This document shows positions 17,707-42,930 of a DNA stretch of 64,000 bases, one piece after another; positions within the stretch are counted from its first letter, which is position 1; every line of letters begins with the position of its first letter. The notes below the pieces were generated by a model that saw only the letters and a program-made list of their open reading frames with translations, had not been told where the DNA came from and searched no databases. The translations under genes were made by a program, and so were the position numbers. Location: assembly GCF_014840935.1 (NCBI RefSeq), contig NZ_CP062005.1:1178001-1242000 (forward strand), read 5' to 3'. This stretch comes from Halomonas sp. YLGW01 (lineage in GTDB: Bacteria; Pseudomonadota; Gammaproteobacteria; Pseudomonadales; Halomonadaceae).

Positions 17707-18600
17707 CTAGCCAGCCCCTCCTTCCCCTGCCACATACTCGAGCGATTCCAGCGAGTCGGTGCCGGTGACGATGGCCTCCAGCTCGTCGCAGAAGGCGGTG
17801 AAGGCATCGCTCGTGTGCCCCGGGGTGCGATGCAGCTCGATCTCCACATGCCCAAGCGGGGGCAGGCCCTCGTCGTCGCCGACGATGCGGCAGCCTTCGG
17901 GGACACTGCGCGGCGTCTTGACGGTCGCCGCCAGGCCCGCCTGCACCGGCAGGTTGATGCCGGTGGGCGACTGGCTGGAGTAGCGCACGTCCCAGCGTCG
18001 CTCGGTCGCGCCCAGCGCCGCGAAAGCATGGGCGCGGAAGGTGCAGCCCTCCGGGTTCAGGGCCAGCGGCAGGGCGTCCCAGTCATCAAGCGAGCAATCC
18101 TCTGCCACCACCCACACCAGCGGCTCGCGGCCCAGCAGCCGGCCGGTCTGTGTCGGACTGTGGCGCACCACCAGAGCGGCGTCCAGCAGACCCTCCTGAA
18201 AGTCATGCACCAGCGAGCCACTGATGCTGCAGATGACCTCGAGGCGCACCTCGGGGAAGCGGGCGGCGAAGCGGGGCAGCAACTCGGGCAGGTAGGTGCT
18301 GGCCTGCTCCTCCGAGGTGCCCAGCCGAATCAGCTCGCCCTGGCGATCCACCCCCATTACCCGGCGCGCCTCGTCCTCCAGCTTGAGGATATGACGGGCA
18401 TAGGGCAGCAAGCGACCTCCCGGAGCGGTGAGTACCACGCTGCGGCTGGTGCGTTCGAACAGTGATTCGCCCATCTGATCCTCGAGCCGCTTGATCTGCA
18501 GGCTGACGGCCGACTGGGTGCGATGCAGCACCTTGCCGGCGGCACTGAAGCCCTCGCATTCGGCTACCGTGACGAAGGCACGGAGCAGGTCGGTATCCAT
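17707..18600 (-). CDS. LysR-family transcriptional regulator
   Basis: 297 aa. The N-terminal winged helix-turn-helix reads FVTVAECEGFSAAGKVLHRT with QSAVSLQIKRLEDQMG, and a LysR substrate-binding domain follows from about residue 90. It is transcribed divergently from the dioxygenase-M24-MMSDH cluster across a 109-bp AT-rich gap, the classical layout for a LysR activator of the neighbouring catabolic genes. The assignment to that cluster is inference; the inducer is unknown. Confidence 0.9.
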   Translation of the reverse strand: MDTDLLRAFVTVAECEGFSAAGKVLHRTQSAVSLQIKRLEDQMGESLFERTSRSVVLTAPGGRLLPYARHILKLEDEARRVMGVDRQGELIRLGTSEEQASTYLPELLPRFAARFPEVRLEVICSISGSLVHDFQEGLLDAALVVRHSPTQTGRLLGREPLVWVVAEDCSLDDWDALPLALNPEGCTFRAHAFAALGATERRWDVRYSSQSPTGINLPVQAGLAATVKTPRSVPEGCRIVGDDEGLPPLGHVEIELHRTPGHTSDAFTAFCDELEAIVTGTDSLESLEYVAGEGGAG

Positions 18601-18709
18601 GATCTATGAGCCCCTGCAATGCATTTTATCTTAACCATTCATTTCTATTATTAAACTCGCCTCACTACCCTGTCCATACGTTATTGGAACAAGTCAGGAG
18701 CAACCCCTC
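18601..18709. promoter_or_regulatory. Divergent promoter region LysR / dioxygenase cluster
   Basis: The only intergenic space between the two divergent units. Bases 18621-18656 are conspicuously AT-rich (TTTTATCTTAACC, then CTATTATTAAAC) against the GC-rich surroundings. AGGAG at 18697-18701 is the ribosome-binding site of the dioxygenase. I cannot place -35/-10 boxes or a LysR T-N11-A site with confidence. Confidence 0.5.
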
Positions 18710-19591
18710 ATGCAAGGCACCGCCATGCAGGAAGACGATACCGCACTCTATGGTCTGATCGATCTCGAGCGTTATCCCATCGACCGGCTGGACGGCGAGC
18801 GGGGGCGCGAATTGATCGCCGAATGCCGTGAGCAGCTGGGTCAGGACGGCTGCGTGGTGCTCAAGGGGTTCGTGCCCGATGAGGCTCTGGCGCGGCTCGA
18901 GCGCGAGACCGAGCGGCTGTCGCCGGAAGCTCACTACAACCAGACCGAGACCAACCCCTATAACAGCGATGCCGACCCGAGCCTGCCGGCCAGCCACCCC
19001 AAGAACCGCTTCGACGATCGCACCAACGGCTTCGTCGCCGGTGACCGCATCGACAGCGATACCATCATTCGCCAGGTCTATTCAGACCCCGGTTTCCAGC
19101 AGTTCATCGCAAGCGTGGTGGACATGGACGAGATCCATCAGTATGCCGACCCCCTGGCCGACCTGGTCGTCAATGTGCTGCGGGAGGGCTGCCAGCATCC
19201 CTGGCACTACGACACCAACGAATTCATCGTCACCATGATGACTCGCCAGTCCCACGGCGGCGGGCGCTTCGAATACGCCCCGGGCATCAGGAGCCCCGAA
19301 GGCGAGAACTTCGACGAGGTCGAGCAGGTCATCGACGGCGACCGCTCGCGGCTCAAGTCTCTCGATCTTCAGCCGGGTGATCTGCAGGTGTTCTTCGGCC
19401 GCTATTCGCTGCACCGGGTGACCCCGGTAGAGGGCGATCGCGAGCGTCACACCGTGATCTTCGCCTATGCCAAGGAGCCGGGTTTCATCGGCCGCCCCGA
19501 GCGTGCGAAGCGCATCTTCGGGCGCATGGCGCCGGTGCACGAGTGCCTGCTCGAGGAAGGCATGCAGCGCAGTGACAGCCTGGCCGACTAG
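18710..19591 (+). CDS. Fe(II)/2-oxoglutarate-dependent dioxygenase (PhyH/ArpA-like)
   Basis: 293 aa. The C-terminal half carries the facial triad expected of this superfamily: H166-x-D168 in PWHYDTNEFIVTMM, and distal H235 in RYSLHRVTPVEG. Arg244 or R246 is positioned to bind 2-oxoglutarate. The preceding QPGDLQVFFG strand is typical of phytanoyl-CoA-dioxygenase-like proteins. Such enzymes hydroxylate small metabolites in the cytoplasm. The EctD (ectoine hydroxylase) signature is not visible. The start has AGGAG 9 nt upstream. It heads a cluster with an M24 enzyme and a semialdehyde dehydrogenase, so an opening hydroxylation of an unknown substrate is plausible. Confidence 0.8.
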   Translation: MQGTAMQEDDTALYGLIDLERYPIDRLDGERGRELIAECREQLGQDGCVVLKGFVPDEALARLERETERLSPEAHYNQTETNPYNSDADPSLPASHPKNRFDDRTNGFVAGDRIDSDTIIRQVYSDPGFQQFIASVVDMDEIHQYADPLADLVVNVLREGCQHPWHYDTNEFIVTMMTRQSHGGGRFEYAPGIRSPEGENFDEVEQVIDGDRSRLKSLDLQPGDLQVFFGRYSLHRVTPVEGDRERHTVIFAYAKEPGFIGRPERAKRIFGRMAPVHECLLEEGMQRSDSLAD

Positions 19592-19603
19592 CCTGGCTGC
19601 GCT

Positions 19604-19692
19604 CGGTCATACGGCGTTAAAAATCGGCTCAAATTGCTCATTTACCACGATGTAAACTCCGCTTTATCGCCGATTTCCGCCTTGTCTGACCA
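19604..19692. repeat. Long imperfect inverted repeat between dioxygenase and M24 gene
   Basis: GGTCATACGGCGTTAAAAAT is mirrored by the complement of ATTTCCGCCTTGTCTGACC, continuing inward through ATCGGC/GCCGAT to TTTAC-cacgat-GTAAA at the tip. The whole 89-nt element folds as one long bulged hairpin. It could act as an intra-operon terminator or attenuator, an RNA-processing site, or a dispersed repeat. I recall similar intergenic hairpins in marine gammaproteobacteria but cannot verify this here. Confidence 0.65.
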
Positions 19693-19749
19693 TCGCTCGC
19701 CGACGCCTAGTTCAGCTACAGACCATCATTTCTTTAAAAGAGAGACGCC

Positions 19750-21033
19750 ATGAGCATCGTCGACTTCGACAACCTGACCGATAACGAACCCGCCTCCATT
19801 CCGGTGGTGCCCTCCGCTCCGATGGCCAACGGCGACAGCATTCCCACCGCCTTCGACCCGGTGCAGCTGCGGGCCGGGCGCCTCAAGCGCCTGCGTCAGA
19901 TGATGGCCGAACAGGGCTACGCCGCCGTGGTGCTGTTCGATCCCTATAACCAGCGCTATGCCACCGGCTCGCGCAATATGTTCGGCTATTTCCTGCGCAA
20001 CTCCACCCGCTACATCTATGTGCCGCTCGAGGGCCCGGTGATCCTCTTCGAGTACCCGGGCAGCGCCCACGTCTCGACCTGGCTCGAGACCATCGATGAA
20101 TCGCGCACTTCCAAGGTGGTGTGGTCGGCGGTGAACCAGCGCGACAACATGTCGTCCGACCCCTTCGGCATCGAGATCGCCGAACTGATGGAGGAACATG
20201 GCCGCGGCAACAAGAAGATCGGCCTTGACCGCTGCGCGCTGAACCTGGCCCGCTCGCTGGAGGCCCAGGGCCTCGAGGTCTTCGACTGCATGCAGGACAC
20301 CCTGCATTGCCGTCGCATCAAGACCCCGGAAGAGATCGCCTGCCTGGCCCAGTCGATGGCAGGTTCAGAGGCCGCAGTGGCGGAAGTGGAAGCCGCTATC
20401 AAGCCGGGCATCAGCGAGACCGAGCTGTTTGCGACCCTCTACGGTAACGTCATCAAGCAGGGCGGGGAGTTCATCGAGACGCGGCTCTTGTCCTCCGGCC
20501 CGCGCACCAACCCCTGGTTCAACGAGGCAAGCGACCGGGTGGTGCGCCCGGGTGAGCTGATCGCGCTGGACACCGACACCATCGGCTGCCACGGCTACTA
20601 CTCCGACTTCTCGCGCACCTTCCATGTCGGGCCGGGTCGCCCCAGTGGCTACCAGCAGAGCCTCTACCAGATGGCCTATGACCAGGTGCACCACAACATG
20701 GGGATTCTCAGGCCGGGCATGAGCTATCGCGAGATCGCAGAAAATGCCTGGAAGATTCCCGAGCGCTTCCTCGACCGCCGCTATCCGTCGATCATCCACG
20801 GCGTCGGCATGCACGGCGAGACGCCGCTGGTCGCCCACCACATGGACTTCGACCGCTTCTCGAAGGACGGCATCCTCGAGCCCGGCATGGTGGTCTCGGT
20901 GGAGAGCTACATCGGCGAGGTCGGCGGCGCCGACGGCGTCAAGCTCGAGGAAGAAGTGCTGGTCACCGAGACCGGCATCGAGAAGCTCTCGCGCTATCCG
21001 TTCGACGAGGCCCTGCTCGGCCGCCAGGTCTGA
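19750..21033 (+). CDS. M24 metallopeptidase-fold enzyme, DddP-like
   Basis: 427 aa with an N-terminal creatinase-type domain and a pita-bread catalytic domain. Likely metal ligands are D274/D276 (ALDTDTIG), D286 (YYSDFSRTF), H350 (IHGVGMHGETP), E385 and E400. GGEFIETRLLSSGPRTNPWF and GEVGG before the last ligand closely resemble what I recall of DddP, the M24-type DMSP lyase. DddP's catalytic Asp, six residues after the metal His, is Gly356 here, so classical DMSP lyase activity is doubtful. It could instead be a C-N or C-S hydrolase/lyase on a betaine-like substrate. An Xaa-Pro peptidase label would be too generic. It is followed 86 bp later by the dehydrogenase. Confidence 0.75.
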   Translation: MSIVDFDNLTDNEPASIPVVPSAPMANGDSIPTAFDPVQLRAGRLKRLRQMMAEQGYAAVVLFDPYNQRYATGSRNMFGYFLRNSTRYIYVPLEGPVILFEYPGSAHVSTWLETIDESRTSKVVWSAVNQRDNMSSDPFGIEIAELMEEHGRGNKKIGLDRCALNLARSLEAQGLEVFDCMQDTLHCRRIKTPEEIACLAQSMAGSEAAVAEVEAAIKPGISETELFATLYGNVIKQGGEFIETRLLSSGPRTNPWFNEASDRVVRPGELIALDTDTIGCHGYYSDFSRTFHVGPGRPSGYQQSLYQMAYDQVHHNMGILRPGMSYREIAENAWKIPERFLDRRYPSIIHGVGMHGETPLVAHHMDFDRFSKDGILEPGMVVSVESYIGEVGGADGVKLEEEVLVTETGIEKLSRYPFDEALLGRQV

Positions 21034-21119
21034 TCAAACTTGCGTCGCTTTTCCCACGGGGCGAGCGGCGCGCCTTACCCGATCCCGAGAACACGACCCA
21101 AGGTTGGAGTCATCCCCAG

Positions 21120-22607
21120 ATGCATACCCTGAACCACCTTATCGCCGGTGAAGCCGTCAGCGCCGAGCGCACCATCGAGGTATTGAACCCGGCCACCGCC
21201 GAGCCGGTGCGTCGCCTGGCCATGGCCGACGGTGCCACCGTCGGGCGCGCCATCGAAGCCGCCCGAGAAGCCCAGCCCGCCTGGCGCGATATGCCGCCGG
21301 CCAAGCGCGCCCAGGTGATGTACCGCTTCAAGACCCTGCTCGAGCGTGACGCCGACGAGATCTGCGCGTTGGTCAGCGAGGAGCACGGCAAGGTGCTGGA
21401 AGACGCCATGGGTGAGCTCAAGCGCGGCATCGAGAACGTCGAGTACGCCTGTGGCGTGCCGGAGCTCTTGAAGGGCGAGTATTCCCACAATGCAGGCCCC
21501 GGCATCGATACCTGGTCGAACCACCAGCCTCTGGGCATCGTCGCCGGCATCACGCCCTTCAACTTTCCGGCCATGGTGCCGCTGTGGATGTACCCGATGG
21601 CGCTGGCCTGCGGCAATGCTTTCATCTTGAAGCCCTCCGAACAGGCGCCGTCGGCTGCCGTGAAGATGGCCGAACTGCTCGACGAGGCCGGCCTGCCCAG
21701 GGGACTCTTCAGCGTGGTGCACGGCGATCGCGAAGCCGTCGACGCGCTGATCGAGGCACCTGAGGTGAAGGCACTGAGCTTCGTCGGCTCCACCCCGGTG
21801 GCGCGCAAGATCTACGAGGGCGGCACTCGGCAGGGCAAGCGCGTGCAGGCCCTCGGCGGGGCCAAGAACCATGCCGTCGTGCTGCCGGATGCGGATCTGG
21901 ACAACGCCGCCAGCACCCTGATCGGCGCCGCCTACGGCAGTGCCGGCGAGCGCTGCATGGCGATCTCGGTGGCCGTGTGCGTGGGTGATGACACCGCCGA
22001 CGCCCTGGTCGAGCGCCTGGCCGCTCAGGCCCGCGAGCTCAAGATCGGCCCGGGCACCGAGAAGGGCCTCGACATGGGCGCGCTGATCAACGCCGGTCAG
22101 CGCGACAAGGTCGCCGGTTACATCGAGCAGGGCGCGGCCGCCGGCGCCGAGCTGGTGGTCGATGGCCGCCAGCACCCGCTGGTCGAGGGATCAAAGGGCT
22201 ACTTCCTCGGCGCGACCCTGTTCGACCGGGTCACCCCAGAAATGAGCATCTACCGAGACGAGATCTTCGGCCCGGTGCTGTGCGTGGTGCGCGTCGAGAC
22301 CTTCGAAGAAGCCATCGCCCTGATCAATGCCCACCAGTACGGCAACGGCACCTGCGTGTTTACCCGCGATGGCGAGGCCGGGCGCCGCTTCAGTGATGCC
22401 ATCGAGGTCGGCATGGTCGGCATCAACGTGCCGCTGCCGGTGCCTGTGGCCTTCCACAGCTTCGGCGGCTGGAAGGACTCGCTATTCGGCGACCTGCACG
22501 CCTACGGCCCGGATGCGGTGCGCTTCTATACCCGCCGCAAGTCGGTCTCCCAGCGCTGGCCCAAGCGCAGTGCCCAGGAGAGCGCCCAGTTCAGCTTCCC
22601 CTCCTGA
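21120..22607 (+). CDS. mmsA: Methylmalonate/malonate-semialdehyde dehydrogenase (CoA-acylating)
   Basis: 495 aa, ALDH superfamily of the MmsA/IolA type. Seen: GITPFNFPAMVPLWMYPMA, the nucleotide loop FVGSTPVARKIYE, GGAKNHAVVLPDA, and catalytic C279 in GSAGERCMAISVAV. The family converts methylmalonate semialdehyde to propionyl-CoA, or malonate semialdehyde to acetyl-CoA, with NAD and CoA. DddC of DMSP pathways belongs to the same family. Placed after the DddP-like gene and a dioxygenase, it probably finishes a short catabolic route yielding a three-carbon semialdehyde. No mmsB or valine-catabolism genes are near. A strong terminator follows. Confidence 0.88.
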   Translation: MHTLNHLIAGEAVSAERTIEVLNPATAEPVRRLAMADGATVGRAIEAAREAQPAWRDMPPAKRAQVMYRFKTLLERDADEICALVSEEHGKVLEDAMGELKRGIENVEYACGVPELLKGEYSHNAGPGIDTWSNHQPLGIVAGITPFNFPAMVPLWMYPMALACGNAFILKPSEQAPSAAVKMAELLDEAGLPRGLFSVVHGDREAVDALIEAPEVKALSFVGSTPVARKIYEGGTRQGKRVQALGGAKNHAVVLPDADLDNAASTLIGAAYGSAGERCMAISVAVCVGDDTADALVERLAAQARELKIGPGTEKGLDMGALINAGQRDKVAGYIEQGAAAGAELVVDGRQHPLVEGSKGYFLGATLFDRVTPEMSIYRDEIFGPVLCVVRVETFEEAIALINAHQYGNGTCVFTRDGEAGRRFSDAIEVGMVGINVPLPVPVAFHSFGGWKDSLFGDLHAYGPDAVRFYTRRKSVSQRWPKRSAQESAQFSFPS

Positions 22608-22638
22608 GCGACCTGACCGGCTGATAGTGGCTGGAATC

Positions 22639-22671
22639 ACGCCCGCCCCGGCCTGCCGGGGCGGGCGTTTT
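22639..22671 (+). terminator. Intrinsic terminator after mmsA
   Basis: ACGCCCGCCCCGG pairs perfectly with CCGGGGCGGGCGT (13 bp) around CCTG, followed by TTT. It closes the dioxygenase-M24-MMSDH unit. Confidence 0.9.
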
Positions 22672-31798: not shown

Positions 31799-31930
31799 TC
31801 GAGTGATGCATCGCCGTGTGAAACACCGCTGACTGACGCCTTTCCATACCGCTGCTAGGCTAACAACACCTGTTAAAGGCATACACCGGGCCATCCGGAT
31901 CGGTTGCCTGACCCTGATCGGAGGGTATCG

Positions 31931-33559
31931 ATGACCCAGACCGCCAGCAACACCGGCACCCCCCCTGGCGAAGGCGGCGAGAGTGATGGCGCCGAAGACT
32001 CCGTGGTCATGGAAGACACTCTTGCCCCGTTGCTGCTTCGCCGGGTGGGCATCGACACCTACCACGAGAATGTGGCCTATCTGCATCGAGACTGCGCGCA
32101 CTATCGCGCAGAGGGCTTCCAGGCGCTTTCGAAGCTCGAGGTGCGCGCCAACGGCCATCGGATCCTGGCGAGCCTCAACGTCGTGGATGATCCGGCTATC
32201 GTCGCTTGCCATCAGCTCGGGCTCTCCGAGGATGCCTTCAAGGCGCTTGGCGAAGCGGAGGGGCAGCCGGTCAGCATCTCCCAGGCCGAGCCCCCGGCCT
32301 CGATTCCGGCCCTGCATCGCAAGATCGCCGGCGAGCGATTGTCCCGCGAGGATTTCAACAACATCATTCGCGACATCGCCGAGCTGCGCTATTCGAAGAT
32401 CGAGTTGACCGCCTTCCTCGTGGCCTGCAGTCAGGGGGAGCTGGACCGCGAGGAAGTCTTCTACCTGAGCGATGCCATGAGTCGGATCGGGCGTCAGCTC
32501 GACTGGCATGAGCACCCGGTGGTCGATAAGCACTGCATCGGGGGCATTCCTGGCAACCGCACCTCGATGCTGGTGGTGCCGATCGTGGCGGCGCATGGCC
32601 TCTTGTGTCCCAAGACCTCATCGCGTGCCATCACCTCACCCTCGGGTACCGCCGATACCATGGAAGTGCTAGCCAAGGTGGACCTGCCCTTCGACGAGCT
32701 GGAAGAGATCGTGCGCACCCACCGCGGTTGCCTGGCCTGGGGCGGGACCAGCGAGCTATCGCCGGCCGATGACGTGCTGATCGCCGTCGAGCGACCGCTG
32801 TACCTGGATTCCCCGGGGCAGATGGTGGCCTCGATCCTGTCCAAGAAGGTGGCCGCCGGGTCGACACATCTGTTGCTTGATATTCCGATGGGGCCGCATG
32901 CCAAGGTGCGCACCATGGCCGAGGCGCGGCGCCTGCGTAAGCTTTTCGAATTCGTAGCCGGGCGCATGGGGCTGGTCCTCGATGTGGTGGTCACCGATGG
33001 CAGTCAGCCGATCGGGCGGGGCATCGGTCCGGTGCTTGAGGCCCGCGACGTGATGCGGGTGCTGACACATCATCCCGATGCGCCCAACGACCTGCGACAG
33101 AAGGCCCTGCGCCTGGCGGGGCGAATGCTGGAGTTCGACCCCGACGTGCGTGGCGGCGACGGCTTCGGCATCGCCCGGGATATCCTCGACTCCGGCCGGG
33201 CGCTGGAGAAGATGCAGGCGATCATTCGTGCCCAGGGCGAGATGCCGTTCGACCTGGACGATCCACCGCTGGCCCCCCACAGCTTCGACGTGATGGCTCC
33301 GAAGGCCGGGGTAGTGACGGCCATCGACAACCTGAAGCTGGCGCGCATCGCCCGCCTGGCCGGGGCCCCGAGGCCCGCGGGTGCGGGGGTCGATCTGCTG
33401 ACGCGCATCGGCGATACCGTAGAGGTCGGTCAGCCGCTGTACCGGGTCTATGCCGCCTATCATGCCGAGCTTGCCTTCGCGCATCAGTCCTGCGAGCGGG
33501 ACAACGGCTTCAGCATCGGCCGCGCGGACGAGATCACGAGACCGAACGTGGAGTTCTGA
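31931..33559 (+). CDS. AMP phosphorylase / thymidine phosphorylase-like enzyme
   Basis: 542 aa, about 100 residues longer than bacterial DeoA because of an N-terminal domain like that of archaeal AMP phosphorylase. The phosphorylase core shows [54 protein letters not shown] and [16 protein letters not shown]. Members phosphorolyse pyrimidine nucleosides, or NMPs to ribose 1,5-bisphosphate plus base. The next gene, a PRPP-synthetase homologue, overlaps in TGATG at 33557-33561, so ribose-phosphate salvage is the likely joint role. Start 31931 follows GGAGGG. The exact substrate is unresolved. Confidence 0.82.
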
Positions 33560-34488
33560 TGGATACCAGGCTTGTCTATTTCGAGGATGAAGCGGTTCCG
33601 GCGCGTCGCCTGGCCGAGGCGGCCGGGCTCGATGCGAGCGTCATCAAGCGCCATGACTTTCCCGATCAGGAGCTGCTGCTGACCCTGGCATCACCGCTTG
33701 ACGATGCCCTGCCACGGACGCTGGTGCTTTACAGAAGCCTCGATCGGCCCAACGACAAGCTGGTGGAACTGCTGCTGCTCGCCCGCCATGCCCGCCGGCT
33801 GGGCGTGACGCGGCTGGTGCTGGTAGCGCCATATCTCGCCTACATGCGCCAGGATATCGCCTTCCACGCCGGCGAGATCGTCAGTCAGCCGCTGATCGGT
33901 GCCTTTCTCGGCGAGCTTTATGATGCGGTGATCACCGTCGACCCCCATCTGCATCGCATCTCGCGCCTCGAAGAGGTGATGCCGGGGATTCAGACGCGGA
34001 CCCTCTCCGGGGCACCCAGGCTCGCGGCTCTGATCAAGGAGAAGCGCCGCAACCCGCTACTGATGGGGCCGGATGACGAATCGATCCAATGGGTCGAGGT
34101 GGCCGCCGCCACCACCGGCTTCGATCATGGGGTGTGTCACAAGGTGCGACATGGCGATACCCGGGTCGATATCGCGCTGCCGGATATCGACCTGCGTGGG
34201 CGTGAGGTGGTGCTGATGGACGATATCGCCAGTTCCGGCCACACCCTGGCCCGTGCCGCCGAGGCGCTGCTGGCCGCGGGAGCCGATTCGGTGGACGTGG
34301 CGGTGACCCATGCGCTCTTTGCCGGCGATGCCCTGGAGGTGATTCGCCGGGCCGGCGTCAACGAGGTATGGAGTACCGATAGCATCGCCCATCCCAGCAA
34401 CGCCGTGGCTATGGCGCCGACCCTTGGCAAGGCGCTGGGTGAGGTGCTGGGTGAGGTGCCGGGTGAGATGAAGAGCGAAGCTCAATAA
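33559..34488 (+). CDS. Ribose-phosphate pyrophosphokinase-like protein
   Basis: 309 aa with two phosphoribosyltransferase-fold halves. RHDFPDQELLLTL, VLVAPYLAYMRQDIAF (like Prs PYFGYARQDR), DAVITVDPHLHRISRLE, and the PRPP loop VVLMDDIASSGHTL at about 216-229 place it in the PRPP-synthetase family. It is divergent from housekeeping Prs: the flexible-loop KRR motif is not preserved as such (HKVRHGD). Translation is coupled to the upstream phosphorylase. The C-terminus consists of a 12-bp DNA repeat giving LGEVLGEVPGE. Confidence 0.82.
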   Translation: MDTRLVYFEDEAVPARRLAEAAGLDASVIKRHDFPDQELLLTLASPLDDALPRTLVLYRSLDRPNDKLVELLLLARHARRLGVTRLVLVAPYLAYMRQDIAFHAGEIVSQPLIGAFLGELYDAVITVDPHLHRISRLEEVMPGIQTRTLSGAPRLAALIKEKRRNPLLMGPDDESIQWVEVAAATTGFDHGVCHKVRHGDTRVDIALPDIDLRGREVVLMDDIASSGHTLARAAEALLAAGADSVDVAVTHALFAGDALEVIRRAGVNEVWSTDSIAHPSNAVAMAPTLGKALGEVLGEVPGEMKSEAQ

Positions 34489-37255: not shown

Positions 37256-38098
37256 TCAGCGGTGGCCGGCCATCAAGTCGCGTACCAGCGGGGTGTCGGC
37301 GTCGCGATGGGTGGGCAGCTCGAAGCGCGCCCGGGCGATGGCGGTGCGTGACAGCCTGGCCTCGATCAACATCTCGCGATCCTCGGCCAGCGCCAGGATC
37401 TCGCCCCGCGGACCGAGAATCCGCGAGCCACCCCAGAAATGGCTCCCGCCCTCGGGGCCGAAGCGATTGGCCATGATCACTGGGGTACCGTAGGTCATGG
37501 CATAGAAGTGCAGGTTGACGGCCCAGTTCTGCTCGTTGGAGAAGTCGTCGCTGACGATGCCCGAGGCCGAGTTGATCGGCGCGCAGAGCACCGTGGGCCT
37601 GGCCAGCAGGGCGGCATGCACCAGCCCCGGGTTCCACAGGTCGGCACAGATCAGCGAGGTCGCGGACCAGCCAGGGCGCACGGGCACGTGGGTCAGTTCG
37701 CTACCGTGGGTGAAGAGCTTGCCTTCCTCCAGGCCACCGTAGGTGGGCAGGTTGAGCTTGCGGTGCACGGCCTGGAGCTCGCCATGCTGGAGGATCGCCA
37801 GGGCGTTGTAGTACTCGCCGGGGCTCGCCTCCTCGACGAAGCCCACCACCACCTGCATCTCGCCGGCTTCCCGGGCGAGCTCCGTCAGGCGCGGATCATG
37901 AGCCGGGCAGGCCAGTTCGATCACCTGGTTTCCCAGGCCGTAGCCGGTCAGCGACAGCTCGGGAAAGACCAGCAGCTCAAGCCCTGTGTGGTGGGCCTTG
38001 GTGATCATCTCGCGGTGGCGCTCGAGGTTGGCATCGACATCGCCCAGGGTGGCGTTGATCTGGGCGGCGCCGACGCGCAGGTGATCCTGATAGTGCAT
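37256..38098 (-). CDS. Nitrilase-superfamily carbon-nitrogen hydrolase
   Basis: 280 aa. The Glu-Lys-Cys triad is visible in LLVFPELSLTGYG (Glu), VHRKLNLPTYGG (Lys) and SLICADLWNPG (Cys). The superfamily hydrolyses amides, nitriles or N-carbamyl compounds in the cytoplasm. The sequence alone does not fix the branch; an aliphatic amidase or NAD-synthetase-type glutaminase-like substrate are both possible. It stands alone between the HPP gene and the solute importer. Confidence 0.87.
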   Translation of the reverse strand: MHYQDHLRVGAAQINATLGDVDANLERHREMITKAHHTGLELLVFPELSLTGYGLGNQVIELACPAHDPRLTELAREAGEMQVVVGFVEEASPGEYYNALAILQHGELQAVHRKLNLPTYGGLEEGKLFTHGSELTHVPVRPGWSATSLICADLWNPGLVHAALLARPTVLCAPINSASGIVSDDFSNEQNWAVNLHFYAMTYGTPVIMANRFGPEGGSHFWGGSRILGPRGEILALAEDREMLIEARLSRTAIARARFELPTHRDADTPLVRDLMAGHR

Positions 38099-38262
38099 GG
38101 TCGAGTCTCGCTATCGGGTGAACGAAGGGGTGACAGGAAGTGGGGGCAATGAGCCATCGCCGCGGATCTTCGCAGGCGCATGGCGGTGCTTCAAGGCGCG
38201 CTCGAACGGGGCAAGATGTGTCATCTCGGGCAGGCTCGCGATTGCGTCGGGGGTGGATGCAA

Positions 38263-38289
38263 GAAAGGCCGCCCTCGGGGCGGCCTTTC
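38263..38289 (-). terminator. Terminator of the compatible-solute importer operon
   Basis: GAAAGGCCGCCC pairs with GGGCGGCCTTTC (12 bp) around TCG. On the minus strand it lies 40 bp after the last binding-protein gene and is followed by CTT. Strong, and probably bidirectional. Confidence 0.88.
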
Positions 38290-38328
38290 AGATAGCGAAT
38301 GTCCAGCGCGTGGCGCCCGGCGGCTCGC

Positions 38329-39213
38329 TTAGATCAGATCATGCTTCTCCAGGAAGCTTTCGGCGACGCGCTCGATGGTTTCGCGCTCCACGTCCACCCG
38401 GGCGTTCAGGGCGGCCATGGTCTGGTCGTCGAGCAGACCGGAGAGGGTGTTCAACTGCTCGGCGAGCTGAGGGTTGGTCTCGAGGACATCCTCGCGGACC
38501 ACGGGCGTCAGCGAGTAGGCGGGGAAGAAGTCCCGGCTGTCCTCGAGCACCCGGAAGTCGAAGGCCGGAACGCGACCGTCGGTGGAGAACACCAGGCCGA
38601 CATCGACGTTGCCGTCGCGCAGGGCGGAGTAGATCAGGCCGGTATCCATGCGGACGATGTCATCACGACCGACACGGAACTCATAGGCCTGCTGTAGCGG
38701 GCGCCAGCCGTCCTTGCGGGAGTAGAATTCGGTGTCCAGCCCGAAGGTCAGGGACTTGTCCTCATTGATCGCCTGTGACAGGTCGTCCAGGGTTTCGATG
38801 CCCATTTCCTCGGCGGTATCGTCGCGCATCGCCAGGGCATAGGTGTTGTTGGCGGCGGAGGGCTCCAGCCAGATGATGCCCTTGTCGGCATCGAGTGCCT
38901 TGACGCGCTCGTAGGTGGCGTCCGCCGATAGGGTCTCGTCGATGTCGTTGTAGACGATCAGCGAGGTGCCGGTGTATTCCCAGTACAGGTCGACCTGGCC
39001 GTTCTCCTGGGCCTGGCGCAGCACGCTCGAGCCCATGCCGTCGCGCTTCTCGATGTCGTAGCCGAGGTCATCGAGGTACTGGCTGGTCATGCTGGAGAGA
39101 ATGAGTTGCTCGGTGTAGTTCTTGCCACCTACGGTGAGTTCGCTGGCGTGGGCGGTGCCGACCAGCAGGGCCGAGGCGAGGCCCAGATGGGTGAGGTATC
39201 GCTGCAATCGCAT
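38329..39213 (-). CDS. OpuC/OsmX-type substrate-binding protein (copy B)
   Basis: 294 aa with signal peptide MRLQRYLTHLGLASALLVGTAHA. The mature protein begins LTVGGKNYTEQLILSSM and contains VDLYWEYTGTSLIVYND and DVGLVFSTDGRVPAFDF, the hallmarks of OpuCC/ProX-like choline/betaine-binding proteins (OpuAC family). It is about 70% similar by eye to the copy just upstream (39311-40192), a recent tandem duplication. Periplasmic partner of the two permeases and ATPase upstream. Confidence 0.92.
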   Translation of the reverse strand: MRLQRYLTHLGLASALLVGTAHASELTVGGKNYTEQLILSSMTSQYLDDLGYDIEKRDGMGSSVLRQAQENGQVDLYWEYTGTSLIVYNDIDETLSADATYERVKALDADKGIIWLEPSAANNTYALAMRDDTAEEMGIETLDDLSQAINEDKSLTFGLDTEFYSRKDGWRPLQQAYEFRVGRDDIVRMDTGLIYSALRDGNVDVGLVFSTDGRVPAFDFRVLEDSRDFFPAYSLTPVVREDVLETNPQLAEQLNTLSGLLDDQTMAALNARVDVERETIERVAESFLEKHDLI

Positions 39214-39252
39214 TTGCGGAGTCCTCTTCCAGAAATGAGACGTTACCCTGAC

Positions 39253-39295
39253 ATGCCGGCCGCCGAAGGCCAGGTGGCGGCTCGGCGGCCGGCAT
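39253..39295 (-). promoter_or_regulatory. Intergenic hairpin between the two binding-protein genes
   Basis: ATGCCGGCCGCCG and CGGCGGCCGGCAT (13-bp perfect stem) with a 17-nt loop, in the 97-bp gap between the duplicated genes. Likely an mRNA-processing or stabilising hairpin, or a partial terminator tuning the expression of the second copy. Confidence 0.6.
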
Positions 39296-39310
39296 TTGGT
39301 CAGGTGGTGA

Positions 39311-40192
39311 TCACAGCAGGTCGTGTTCCTTGAGGAAGCCTTCGGCGACACGCTCGATGGTCTCCTTGTCGACGTCGACCTGGGCGTTGAGGCCGGACAT
39401 GGTTGCATCGTCGAGCAGGCCGGAGAGCTTGTCCATCTGGGCCTCGAGCTCGGGATTGGCCTCAAGGGTCTCGGCGCGCACCACCGGAGTCAGGGCGTAG
39501 GCCGGGAAGTAGTTCTGGTCGTCTTCGAGCACCTGGAAGTCGAAGGCCGGGATGCGACCATCGGTGGCGAACACCAGGCCGACGTCGACCTGGCCGTCGC
39601 GCAGCGCCTGGTAGACCAGGCCGGAGTCCATGCGTTTGACGTCGCCGCGGCCGACGCGGAAGTCATAGGCCTGCTGCAGCGGGCGCCAGCCGTCCTCGCG
39701 AGCATAGAACTCGGCATTCAGGGCGAAGGTCAGGCCCTCGTCGTCGTTGACCGCCTGGGCCAGGTCGGACAGCGTCGCGATGCCGCGCTCCTGGGCATCA
39801 TCTTCGCGCATGGCCAGGGCGTAGGTGTTGTTGGCGTCGGAGGGCGCGAGCCACACCAGCCCCTTCTCGGCATCGAGTTCCTTGACCCGCGCGTAGGTCT
39901 CCTCGGGCGACAGGCGCTCGGTGACGTCGTTGTAGTTGATCAGCGAGGTGCCGGTGTACTCCCAGTAGAGATCGATCTGGCCATTCTCCTGGGCCTGGCG
40001 CAGCACGGCCGAGCCCATGCCGGAGCGCTGCTCGACGTCATAACCCAGGCCGTCGAGGTACTGGCTGGTCATGCTGGCCAGGATCTGCTGCTCGGTGAAG
40101 TTCTTGCCGCCGACCACGATCTCGTTGGCCTGAGCGGTGGCCATGGTGCTGGCCAGTGCCGCGCCGGAAAGCAGGGTCATCAAGGTTTTCAT
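39311..40192 (-). CDS. OpuC/OsmX-type substrate-binding protein (copy A)
   Basis: 293 aa, signal peptide MKTLMTLLSGAALASTMATAQA. Mature start IVVGGKNFTEQQILASM; DLYWEYTGTSLINYND and LVFATDGRIPAFDFQVLEDD follow. This is the ancestral-looking copy, directly after the permease gene (96 bp). Binds quaternary-ammonium or similar compatible solutes in the periplasm; the ligand cannot be read from sequence. Confidence 0.92.
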   Translation of the reverse strand: MKTLMTLLSGAALASTMATAQANEIVVGGKNFTEQQILASMTSQYLDGLGYDVEQRSGMGSAVLRQAQENGQIDLYWEYTGTSLINYNDVTERLSPEETYARVKELDAEKGLVWLAPSDANNTYALAMREDDAQERGIATLSDLAQAVNDDEGLTFALNAEFYAREDGWRPLQQAYDFRVGRGDVKRMDSGLVYQALRDGQVDVGLVFATDGRIPAFDFQVLEDDQNYFPAYALTPVVRAETLEANPELEAQMDKLSGLLDDATMSGLNAQVDVDKETIERVAEGFLKEHDLL

Positions 40193-40288
40193 GGAGTCGC
40201 TCCTTGTTGTGAAGTGTCAGTCGTGCGTCTTGCTATGGGTCGAGCGTCCCTGCCTGCCGAGTCGCTGCCAGGCAGTGGATCGCACGAA

Positions 40289-41020
40289 TCAGGCCCGGCT
40301 CGGGTTCACCCCGCGCGGGACCATCAGGAAAGCGGTGACAGCGATGAGCATGTCGACCGCGACTGCCAGCAGTGCCGTGGGAATGGCGCCAGAGAGCATC
40401 ATCACCGGGTCATAGAGGTCGATGCCGGTGAAGATCAGCTCGCCAAGGCCGCCGGCTCCGATCAGGAAGGCCAGCGGCACGGTGCCGACGTTAATGGCCA
40501 ACGCCGTGCGGATGCCGGCGAAGATCACGTATAGGGCATTGGGTAATTCGACCCGTAGCAGGCGCTGGGTCGGCGACATACCGATGCCCGCCGCGGCTTC
40601 CATGAGGGCCGGCGAGACGCCCTTGAGGCCCGTGTAGGTGTTGCGGGTGATCGGCAGCAGCGTCGCCACGAAGAGCCCGAACACTGCCGGCACGGTGCCG
40701 ATGCCCAGGAAGCTCATCGACAGCGCCAGCACCGCAAGCGTCGGGATGGTGGTGCCCACGTTGAGCACCTGCATCGCGGATTCCGCGACCTTTTCCATGG
40801 TGGGGCGCGACAGCAGGATGCCCAGCGGGATGGCGACGAGGATCGCCAGGCTGCCGGAGATGGCGGTCAGCCATAGATGCTGCACGGCCAGGTACTGGAT
40901 ATCGGGCAGGTAGAAGATGAAGTCGTCGATCACGCCGCTGGACTGGCTCCACACCCCGGCCATGAAGACTACCACCAGCACCAGCAGGCGCATTGCCCCA
41001 GAGAGGTTCAGCGTCGGCAT
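40289..41020 (-). CDS. OpuC/OsmU-type ABC permease (second)
   Basis: 243 aa with about six transmembrane helices and the BPD permease EAA-like loop ALMEAAAGIGMSPTQRLLRVELP. VLNVGTTIPTLAVLALSMSFLGIG is characteristic of OpuCB/OpuCD-type permeases. It starts 3 bp after the ATPase stop, so it is translationally linked. Forms the channel with the 42265-42930 product. Confidence 0.92.
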   Translation of the reverse strand: MPTLNLSGAMRLLVLVVVFMAGVWSQSSGVIDDFIFYLPDIQYLAVQHLWLTAISGSLAILVAIPLGILLSRPTMEKVAESAMQVLNVGTTIPTLAVLALSMSFLGIGTVPAVFGLFVATLLPITRNTYTGLKGVSPALMEAAAGIGMSPTQRLLRVELPNALYVIFAGIRTALAINVGTVPLAFLIGAGGLGELIFTGIDLYDPVMMLSGAIPTALLAVAVDMLIAVTAFLMVPRGVNPSRA

Positions 41021-41023
41021 GGC

Positions 41024-42202
41024 TTACTCCTTGTGGGCCGGTGACAGCGATGCTGCGGCATCCGGAGTGGCTTCGTCTCGCGAGTGAGCCCGGTAGCGGG
41101 AGCCCAGGTGGTGGGTGATCGCCCGCTGGGTGATCTGGCCGACGATGCGGCCGTCGTCGTCGACGCAGGGTACCCAGGTCATGTCATTGGCAAACATCAG
41201 CGAGGCGACCTTGCGCAGATCGTCGTCGAGGCTGACCACCACCGGCACGCTCTGGAAGTGATCGCGGCAATGGCCCTTGGTGGTGCGGGCCACGGCGGCG
41301 TTGATGATGCCCACCGGTTGGCGTTTGTTGTTCACCATCACGATGCTGTTCAGATAGCCATATGCTTCGATCCGGTTCAGCGCGGTGTCGAGGGTGTCGT
41401 CTGGGCGCACTAGGCCGATCTCGTCGCTGGCCAGGTCGCGCACCTTTACCAGGTTGAGGCGCTTGAGCGCCCGATCCTCGCCGAGGAAGGATTCGACGAA
41501 GTCGTTCTTGGGCGCGGCCAGCAGCTCATCGGGCTCCGAGTACTGCACCAGTTTGCCGGCACGGAAGATGGCGATGCGGTCGCCCATCTTGATCGCTTCG
41601 TCGATGTCGTGGCTGACGAACATGATGGTCTTCTTGAGGTCCTGCTGCATCTTCAGGAACTCGTCCTGGATCACCGCCCGGTTGATCGGGTCGATGGCGC
41701 CGAAGGGCTCGTCCATCAGCATCACGGGCGGGTCGGCGGCCAGCGCCCGAGCCACGCCGATGCGCTGCTGCTGCCCGCCGGAGAGCTCGCTTGGATAGCG
41801 CTTGAGGAAGGCATCCGGCTCCAGGGCGATCATGCGCATCATCTCCCGCGCACGCTCCCGGTACTTGGCCTTGTCCCAGCCCAGCAGCTTCGGCACCACG
41901 GTGATGTTCTCCTCGATGGTCATGTTGGGGAACAGACCGATCTGCTGGATCACGTAGCCGATGTTGCGGCGCAGGTCCTGGGTGTCGAGGCTGCTGGTGT
42001 CCTCGCCGTTGATGAACACCTTGCCCGACGTTGGGCGAATGATGCGGTTGATCATCTTCAGGGAGGTGGTCTTGCCGCAGCCGGAGGGGCCGAGCAGGAT
42101 GCAGATCTCGCCGCTCGGCACCTCCATGCTGATGTGGTCGGCGGCGGTCACGGCCCCTTTGGGCGTGTCGAAGACCTTGGTCAGGTTGTCGAGTCGAATC
42201 AT
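41024..42202 (-). CDS. OpuCA/OsmV-type ABC ATPase with C-terminal CBS domains
   Basis: 392 aa. Walker A GPSGCGKTTSLKM (residues 38-50), signature LSGGQQQRIGVARALAADPP, Walker B LMDEPFGAID; the ABC transporter ATPase domain extends to about 245. Two CBS motifs follow (about 255-375: RPDDTLDTALNRIEAYGY; LDDDLRKVASLMFANDMTWV), as in OpuAA/OpuCA where they sense ionic strength. This fits an osmotically regulated solute importer. Cytoplasmic, membrane-associated. Confidence 0.94.
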   Translation of the reverse strand: MIRLDNLTKVFDTPKGAVTAADHISMEVPSGEICILLGPSGCGKTTSLKMINRIIRPTSGKVFINGEDTSSLDTQDLRRNIGYVIQQIGLFPNMTIEENITVVPKLLGWDKAKYRERAREMMRMIALEPDAFLKRYPSELSGGQQQRIGVARALAADPPVMLMDEPFGAIDPINRAVIQDEFLKMQQDLKKTIMFVSHDIDEAIKMGDRIAIFRAGKLVQYSEPDELLAAPKNDFVESFLGEDRALKRLNLVKVRDLASDEIGLVRPDDTLDTALNRIEAYGYLNSIVMVNNKRQPVGIINAAVARTTKGHCRDHFQSVPVVVSLDDDLRKVASLMFANDMTWVPCVDDDGRIVGQITQRAITHHLGSRYRAHSRDEATPDAAASLSPAHKE

Positions 42203-42264
42203 GTAGCGGTCCTTGTCGGGTCTGCAGCCTTTTCAGGTCGACTGAGAGTGGCGCGGATGACGGT

Positions 42265-42930
42265 TCAGGCAGTGGTGGCGGCGCGCTCCATGCCCTTGGG
42301 CGTCAGGCGCTTCTGCAGCGCCAGCAGTGAATAGTCGACGATGATCGCCAGCACGCTGACGGCCACGGCGCCGAGGATCAGCTGGCGAGGATCGGACTGT
42401 GAAATGCCGCGGCTGATGAAGGTGCCGAGCCCCCCGGCGCCGATGTAGGCGGCGATCGCCATGACGCCGATATTGAGCACCACGGCGGTGCGCACGCCGG
42501 CCATGATCACCGGCACGGCGAGCGGTATTTCGACCATGCGCAGGCGCTGGTTTTGGCTCATGCCGATGCCGCGAGCGGCCTCGCGAAGGGCCGGGTCGAC
42601 GTTGTTGATGGCGGTATAGGTGTTGCGAATGATCGGCAGCTGCGAGTAGAGCAGTACCGCAATGACCGCCGGCATGTACCCGATACCCTGACCGATGATC
42701 GACAGGATCGGGATCATGATGCCGAACAGCGCGATGGAGGGGATCGTCACGATGATCGAGGCGATGTAGAGCACGGTCTTGGCGGCGCGTTCGTTCTTGG
42801 TGATGGCGATGCCGATCGGCACGCCGGTCAGGGTCGCGATGCCGACCGCGACGCCCACCAGGGAAATATGCTCGACCGTGCGGGTCAGCAAGAGCTCCAG
42901 GTTGTCCAGAGCATATTGAAGCAGTTCCAA
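42265..42930 (-). CDS. OpuC/OsmU-type ABC permease (first)
   Basis: 221 aa, six helices, with the EAA-like loop ALREAARGIGMSQNQRLRMVEIP. The gene starts with TTG at 42930: AAGGAG lies 7 nt upstream and no in-frame ATG fits. First gene of the five-gene minus-strand operon permease-ATPase-permease-SBP-SBP (42930 to 38329). Confidence 0.92.
   Translation of the reverse strand: MELLQYALDNLELLLTRTVEHISLVGVAVGIATLTGVPIGIAITKNERAAKTVLYIASIIVTIPSIALFGIMIPILSIIGQGIGYMPAVIAVLLYSQLPIIRNTYTAINNVDPALREAARGIGMSQNQRLRMVEIPLAVPVIMAGVRTAVVLNIGVMAIAAYIGAGGLGTFISRGISQSDPRQLILGAVAVSVLAIIVDYSLLALQKRLTPKGMERAATTA

Follow-up and report, generated by a model that had tools for sequence, protein, structure and literature searches.

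A dioxygenase and a DddP-like M24 enzyme in Halomonas sp. YLGW01 as the candidate catabolic half of a conserved betaine-type solute system

In the HalD/BesD halogenases, Gly or Ala replaces the Asp iron ligand. In saline water, carbon and nitrogen circulate to a large extent as betaines and sulfonium osmolytes, the breakdown of which gives rise to methylamines and dimethyl sulfide. One enzyme of such breakdown is DddP, an M24-fold lyase of dimethylsulfoniopropionate (DMSP). PMC4108388 gives D295, D297, D307, H371, E406 and E421 as its metal ligands and Tyr366 and Asp377 as further residues. Asp377, the proposed catalytic base, is invariant in DddP. Here we analysed a 64,000-nucleotide stretch (the window) of Halomonas sp. 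YLGW01 (NZ_CP062005.1, positions 1,178,001 to 1,242,000, forward strand; a 3.45-Mb genome in one contig), in which relatives of both enzyme types are encoded side by side, together with a dehydrogenase gene and a divergent regulator gene. With moderate confidence, we read these four genes as the catabolic part of a conserved system that takes up and breaks down a betaine-type solute, its other part being an importer and an amidase encoded at 37256-42930. The four genes and their control elements are as follows.

17707..18600, minus strand: LysR-family regulator, divergent from the operon (Pfam HTH_1 and LysR_substrate)
18601..18709, no strand: AT-rich divergent promoter region in the LysR/dioxygenase gap (from GC content)
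18710..19591, plus strand: 2-oxoglutarate (2OG)/Fe(II) dioxygenase, HalD/BesD fold, HxD iron motif (Pfam HalD, AlphaFold and Foldseek)
19750..21033, plus strand: M24-fold metalloenzyme, sister of DddP, Gly356 at the DddP Asp377 position (Pfam Peptidase_M24, 117 bits)
21120..22607, plus strand: CoA-acylating (methyl)malonate-semialdehyde dehydrogenase, MMSDH (TIGR01722, 662 bits)
22639..22671, plus strand: intrinsic terminator 3' of MMSDH (13-bp hairpin into TTTT; terminator-scan hit)

The genes are real and more than chance neighbours. To follow them across genomes, we used three samples: 390 genomes of the order, searched for dioxygenase relatives at E 1e-20 (loci with 1.5-kb flanks); 121 genomes of the family, 44 of them dioxygenase-positive (orthologues of at least 73% identity) and 77 negative; and the best 80 of at least 572 confirmed dioxygenase loci, 37 at >70% identity (close), one at 52-70% and 42 at ≤52% (distant). 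Among the family genomes, the M24 gene adjoined the dioxygenase gene on the same strand for 44/44 orthologues, on which ground a chance neighbourhood was rejected, and it was adjacent in 47/48 paralogues at 42-47% identity; ten of the 101 M24 matches lacked a dioxygenase. A single in-frame stop is counted in some M24 matches (G417:C9 and eight among the paralogues), perhaps only because the match overruns its natural stop, as in L085. Within the best 80 loci, all 37 close ones carried the M24 gene, 35 a divergent LysR gene (one of the two without it lies at a contig end) and 24 MMSDH; M24 and LysR were also present at the single locus of 52-70% identity, and the distant loci had M24 in 19/42 and LysR in 11/42. 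Across the order, a dioxygenase relative occurred in 31/390 genomes, with M24 in 14 of the 30 loci examined (L001-L013; L015 at a contig end). The closest dioxygenase relative with a species name, among the matches listed, belongs to Onishia taeanensis (94% identity). The sequence-only reading had described a unit-like layout of four genes and proposed a search for co-occurrence elsewhere; the open reading frames and family matches are as it described, the layout is conserved far beyond chance and the dioxygenase/M24 pair recurs together.

That reading also noted no transport gene in the cluster. This is true of the four genes but misleading, as a co-occurring unit of an amidase and an importer, likely one operon up to 42930, sits ~15 kb downstream in the same window.

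37256..38098, minus strand: CN_hydrolase-family amidase (Pfam; co-occurs with the dioxygenase/M24 pair)
38329..39213, minus strand: OpuAC substrate-binding protein 2 (Pfam OpuAC; start codon assumed inside a longer open reading frame)
39311..40192, minus strand: OpuAC substrate-binding protein 1 (Pfam OpuAC)
40289..41020, minus strand: ABC permease (Pfam BPD_transp_1)
41024..42202, minus strand: ABC ATPase with CBS domains (Pfam ABC_tran and CBS)
42265..42930, minus strand: ABC permease (Pfam BPD_transp_1)

The CN_hydrolase gene was found in 43/44 dioxygenase-positive versus 1/77 negative family genomes (Fisher p 1.6e-30, the related genomes not being independent), and the single match among the negatives is a fragment. 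It lay on the dioxygenase contig in 36/43 genomes, within 5 kb in 9 and within 30 kb in 32. Within the stretch examined, 17/37 close loci contained CN_hydrolase and 15/37 an OpuC-type binding protein (>45% identity). Importer, CN_hydrolase, LysR, dioxygenase and M24 genes, without MMSDH, stood together in the alphaproteobacterium Fodinicurvata (L067), in Natronospirillum (L063) and in a gammaproteobacterium of another family (G692, L132/L133), where genes read from their translations as MmgE/PrpD-like and GlxA-like join the set. MmgE/PrpD-family genes recur near CN_hydrolase, as annotated in L118 and L131 and as read from translations in L112 and L132. At two loci, L112 14661-18661 (G421) and L116 10293-15059 (G419), the importer is joined by another OpuAC protein, a second CN_hydrolase and a large hydrolase whose translation resembles CocE/NonD.

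The importer combines an OpuAC substrate-binding protein, two permeases and a CBS-type ATPase, the composition of the OpuC/OsmF type, and matches OsmF and ProX; the OsmF equivalog cut-off of 400 bits was not reached by the L052 orthologue, the copy scored in place of that of the window (176 bits). Comparison of binding protein 1 with ProX chain 1sw2, at positions that we take to be ligand-site residues, showed K13, Y63, T66, Y111, R149 and Y214 kept, Phe in place of Y190 and Asn in place of D109. An osmolyte-like substrate had been guessed from the four genes, and these surroundings agree, as do the OpuAC, BCCT or ProU transporters found beside relatives.

The M24 enzyme had been likened to DddP. 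It scores 322 bits with the DddP model NF043017 (cut-off 600) versus 853 bits for a DddP control from P. yeei, and the host genome contains no DddP above the cut-off. The nearest solved structures to its model (predicted local distance difference test, pLDDT, 85.8) are of DddP (template-modelling score, TM, 0.85; 34-38% identity). All six DddP metal ligands are kept, invariant in 28/28 and 75/75 aligned sequences, and the Tyr366 position is Tyr in 74/75. At the Asp377 position, the 75 sequences have Gly (68, including the window), Asp (5), Ala (1) or Asn (1). Asp stands in the DddP control and in four sister M24s (two of Rhizobium, one each of Mesorhizobium and Pseudomonas MPC6), so it is not exclusive to DddP at this position; one of the four sisters has a dioxygenase partner of its own. 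Trp95, presumably a functional residue of DddP, corresponds to Tyr in the window protein. A tree of M24 sequences placed the window protein and one from S. meliloti inside the largest all-Gly clade (51/68 Gly sequences, support 0.945; 17 Gly sequences fall outside). Given the score and the Gly at Asp377, we rejected membership in DddP, and as a claim of membership the analogy fails. Ectoine hydrolase DoeA was rejected too (51.7 and 21 bits versus cut-offs of 575 and 613). The M24 proteins of rhizobia and Pseudomonas (L124, L126, L127, L122, L097) reach 280-369 bits with the DddP model, again below 600, and such sub-cut-off scores mean that similarity alone may inflate DMSP-lyase counts.

The dioxygenase matches Pfam HalD (PF23169) with 59 bits (cut-off 26). 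H166, D168 and the distal H235, which we take to form the iron site, and R246, presumably the 2OG-binding Arg, are invariant in 15/15 aligned sequences. Foldseek searches with the AlphaFold model (pLDDT 90.7) returned HalB, HalD, HalA, BesD and a BesD hydroxylase homologue as top matches. The protein thus carries HxD...H and Arg on a HalD fold, with the site roles assumed as above, and because of the HxD motif on this fold it is expected to be of the hydroxylase type. Identity as a halogenase was rejected, as position 168 is Asp, not Gly or Ala, in 15/15 sequences. At L123 9950-20783, where M24 is lacking, genes for an ABC transporter, an MttB-family protein and FAD oxidoreductases come after a dioxygenase relative. 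M24 is also missing beside the relatives of Nocardia and Actinophytocola (L086, L099, L106, L107, L109), which adjoin a gene clustering with a carnitine-acyltransferase Pfam match and one for a 271-aa protein that matches no Pfam family (Pfam scan of the L086 copies).

MMSDH scores 661.8 bits with TIGR01722, above the curated cut-off of 448.5, and is one of four MMSDH-type genes in the host genome. The gene is in the cluster as described, with its family match borne out, but it is not obligatory: it stands next to the pair in 25/44 dioxygenase-positive family genomes. A C3 or branched C4 semialdehyde would be a fitting substrate, the step being optional. The gaps between the three plus-strand genes measure 158 bp (dioxygenase/M24) and 86 bp (M24/MMSDH), and the terminator scan of the window called no plus-strand terminator between them. 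The divergent LysR and the terminator after the last gene were both upheld. GC content is 0.39 at 18600-18699 versus 0.60-0.69 in non-overlapping 100-base windows of 18300-18599 and 18700-18999; the gap holds one sigma-70-like match, on the minus strand, a count no higher than in shuffles, and LysR would control the operon. Behind MMSDH, the 13-bp hairpin runs into TTTT at 22668-22671; an 86-base stretch here has a folding z of -2.4, with 4/200 shuffles folding equally well, and the scan also calls this terminator, its total hits being no more than shuffles give. Elsewhere in the window, a nucleoside-phosphorylase-like gene (Glycos_transf_3, PYNP_C) and a PRPP-synthetase-like gene at 31904-34488 form a pair that resembles an AMP-phosphorylase route.

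On annotated plasmids, relatives of the M24 enzyme occur in quaternary-amine loci with other partners. On S. meliloti pSymA, an M24 relative of 63% identity lies near an FAD oxidoreductase, an MttB-family protein, a GlxA regulator and an isochorismatase, along with an importer of the same type (permease 70%, binding protein 56%) and MR/MLE and Ldh-family genes. The Mesorhizobium relative stands with MttB near an OpuC- or ProU-type importer. Two Rhizobium relatives lie between a GbcA-like Rieske oxygenase and a 4-hydroxyproline epimerase, with a ProU transporter, an aldehyde dehydrogenase and dihydrodipicolinate synthase-family genes; of the R. acidisoli copies, the Rieske protein falls short of the GbcA cut-off (419 bits versus 670) and the epimerase exceeds its own (583 versus 376). 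No dioxygenase relative was found in the four M24 stretches of S. meliloti, Rhizobium (two) and Mesorhizobium. In Pseudomonas MPC6, both dioxygenase and M24 are present, followed at some distance by MR/MLE and a betaine ABC system, and three Paracoccus records place a Rieske oxygenase, FAD oxidoreductases and a GlxA regulator next to the CN_hydrolase-importer unit.

From gene content, conservation, co-occurrence, predicted folds and active-site residues, we infer a substrate class, an order of steps and the reaction at each. The transporters and the contexts of relatives point to betaine-type zwitterions. The OpuC/OsmF-type importer would bring in a zwitterion whose head is a quaternary ammonium or sulfonium group, and at some stage the CN_hydrolase amidase would take off an amide or carbamoyl group. 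The HalD-fold dioxygenase would then oxidise a C-H next to or near the charged nitrogen, by hydroxylation or oxidative N-demethylation; this is the most economical guess because a Rieske or MttB-type enzyme takes its place in rhizobia. The M24 enzyme may next cleave the product, by a reaction not relying on Asp at the DddP position, and MMSDH, where present, could convert malonate or methylmalonate semialdehyde to acetyl- or propionyl-CoA. A C3 betaine of the beta-alanine betaine type is one of two leading substrate guesses, though in itself a rather unlikely one. Creatine, carnitine, gamma-butyrobetaine, homarine, trigonelline and N-acetylglutaminylglutamine amide were considered without evidence. 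More tentatively, the genes could represent a third opening of quaternary betaines, free of both cobalamin and Rieske chemistry, made of a HalD-fold 2OG dioxygenase and a DddP-like M24 without the lyase base; around a constant M24 and betaine importer, oxidative partners of 2OG, Rieske or MttB type could replace one another, and so could amidases of the CN_hydrolase, isochorismatase or amidase-signature type.

The other leading guess, a proline-betaine type solute, is about as doubtful as the C3 betaine and belongs to a pathway of its own, in which the pair would act on proline betaine or hydroxyproline betaine and the M24 fold, kin to prolidases, would recognise the ring. This account, also rather unlikely, draws on the two Rhizobium relatives flanked by GbcA-like Rieske and 4-hydroxyproline epimerase genes, on MR/MLE enzymes that S. 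meliloti, Mesorhizobium and Pseudomonas MPC6 encode at most ~8 kb from M24, and on Pro_racemase genes being commoner in carriers (36/44) than in other family genomes (42/77). However, the M24s of Rhizobium retain Asp at the 377 position, with identities of only 36-39%, and MMSDH is foreign to the route. In addition, 8/44 dioxygenase-positive genomes have no Pro_racemase-family match at E 1e-30, which weakens hydroxyproline as the sole downstream path, although an MR/MLE epimerase could replace the missing enzyme.

Kinship with prolidases, which many M24 members are, also underlies a peptidase explanation, in which M24 would cut proline-containing or modified dipeptides and the dioxygenase modify the freed amino acid. 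HalD-fold enzymes act on free amino acids, according to the titles of solved structures, and four distant pairs lie near peptide-type SBP_bac_5 transporters; but the close group goes with an OpuC/OsmF importer and the M24 is nearer to DddP than to prolidases in sequence and fold, and we consider this improbable. We think equally little of a true DMSP lyase within a DMSP-to-acetyl-CoA route. The structural neighbours, the six kept ligands and an MMSDH that would fit malonate semialdehyde from the acrylate route speak for it, but the score is far below both the cut-off and the DddP control, Asp377 is Gly, the Trp95 position is Tyr, the host genome lacks a DddP above cut-off and the one DddP-annotated cluster examined (P. 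yeei) has no such dioxygenase. Least credible, and very improbable, is a role of the dioxygenase in a small natural-product pathway, as amino-acid hydroxylase or as halogenase: the HalD Pfam match and the HalB/HalD/BesD fold would suit it, but the invariant Asp168 speaks against a halogenase and the identified neighbours are regulators, transporters and degradative enzymes.

In support of the betaine-type uptake-and-breakdown system that we favour, betaine-type transporters stood near 10/19 distant dioxygenase loci with M24 versus 0/23 without it, but flank lengths differ and the transporter queries came partly from M24-bearing loci, which favours this contrast. Several observations weigh against the system. 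SBP_bac_5 transporters occurred in 5/42 distant loci, of which 4 have M24. In 19/44 dioxygenase-positive family genomes, no MMSDH adjoins the pair, and we rejected it as an obligatory part. One genome (G491), the sole miss among the 44, has the pair without CN_hydrolase. Where both share a contig, CN_hydrolase lies >10 kb from the dioxygenase in 20/36 genomes and is convergent with it in 35/36; being mostly distant and convergent, it is not in the operon. Within the stretches examined, one of four genomes of other orders with CN_hydrolase, G692, had the pair; one had importer and CN_hydrolase, and two CN_hydrolase alone. Likewise, the CN_hydrolase-importer unit occurs, with no dioxygenase or M24 in the examined stretch, in five records of plasmids (three from Paracoccus, one each from Shinella and Caballeronia; L118, L119, L121, L130, L131), and since the unit stands without the pair elsewhere, it serves other pathways too. 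Finally, we are aware of none among the natural betaines that both bears an amide and would match the whole gene set.

The four-gene set is conserved and apparently not previously described: among the matches listed from an open-licence PMC library, no title or abstract describes the dioxygenase/M24 pair, and a prior description is possible in the subscription literature. If the betaine-type system is right, a widespread set of DddP-like proteins does not consist of DMSP lyases, which bears on genome-based counts of DMSP degraders; halophiles would also possess an oxidative route for betaines to which no enzyme has yet been assigned. In rhizobia, the swapping of partners gives a direct handle on the reaction that the M24 enzymes share, both for guessing it and for testing it.

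Overall, we file the system as a variant of betaine catabolic modules. With DddP of Roseobacter and Ruegeria (PDB 4b28, 4rzy, 4s00, 4s01), the M24 enzyme shares the fold, the six metal ligands and the Tyr366 position, but it lacks Asp377, is 34-38% identical, reaches about half the family cut-off score and is paired with a 2OG dioxygenase and, within the family, an OpuC-type importer. The dioxygenase has the fold, sequence motifs and hydroxylase-type HxD iron site of the HalD/BesD family of 2OG enzymes and the BesD hydroxylase homologue (7u6h, 6nie, 7jsd), whereas its identity to solved members of that group is 13-19% and its gene context is degradative. MMSDH, 5tjr-like in sequence, passes the curated cut-off for CoA-acylating enzymes (TIGR01722), but is one of several such genes in the genome and adjoins the pair only in part of the halomonads. 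The importer has the binding protein, two permeases and CBS ATPase of the OsmF/OpuC/ProX osmoprotectant importers and keeps most tested ProX positions, and differs in its linked CN_hydrolase and, in the window, two binding proteins. With the quaternary-amine loci of rhizobia and Paracoccus, built on Rieske (GbcA-like) or MttB-family enzymes, the system has in common that an M24 relative, or else the unit of CN_hydrolase and importer, stands beside quaternary-amine transporters and GlxA regulators; in those loci, however, the oxidative or demethylating enzyme is of the Rieske or MttB family, with no HalD-fold dioxygenase in the stretch.

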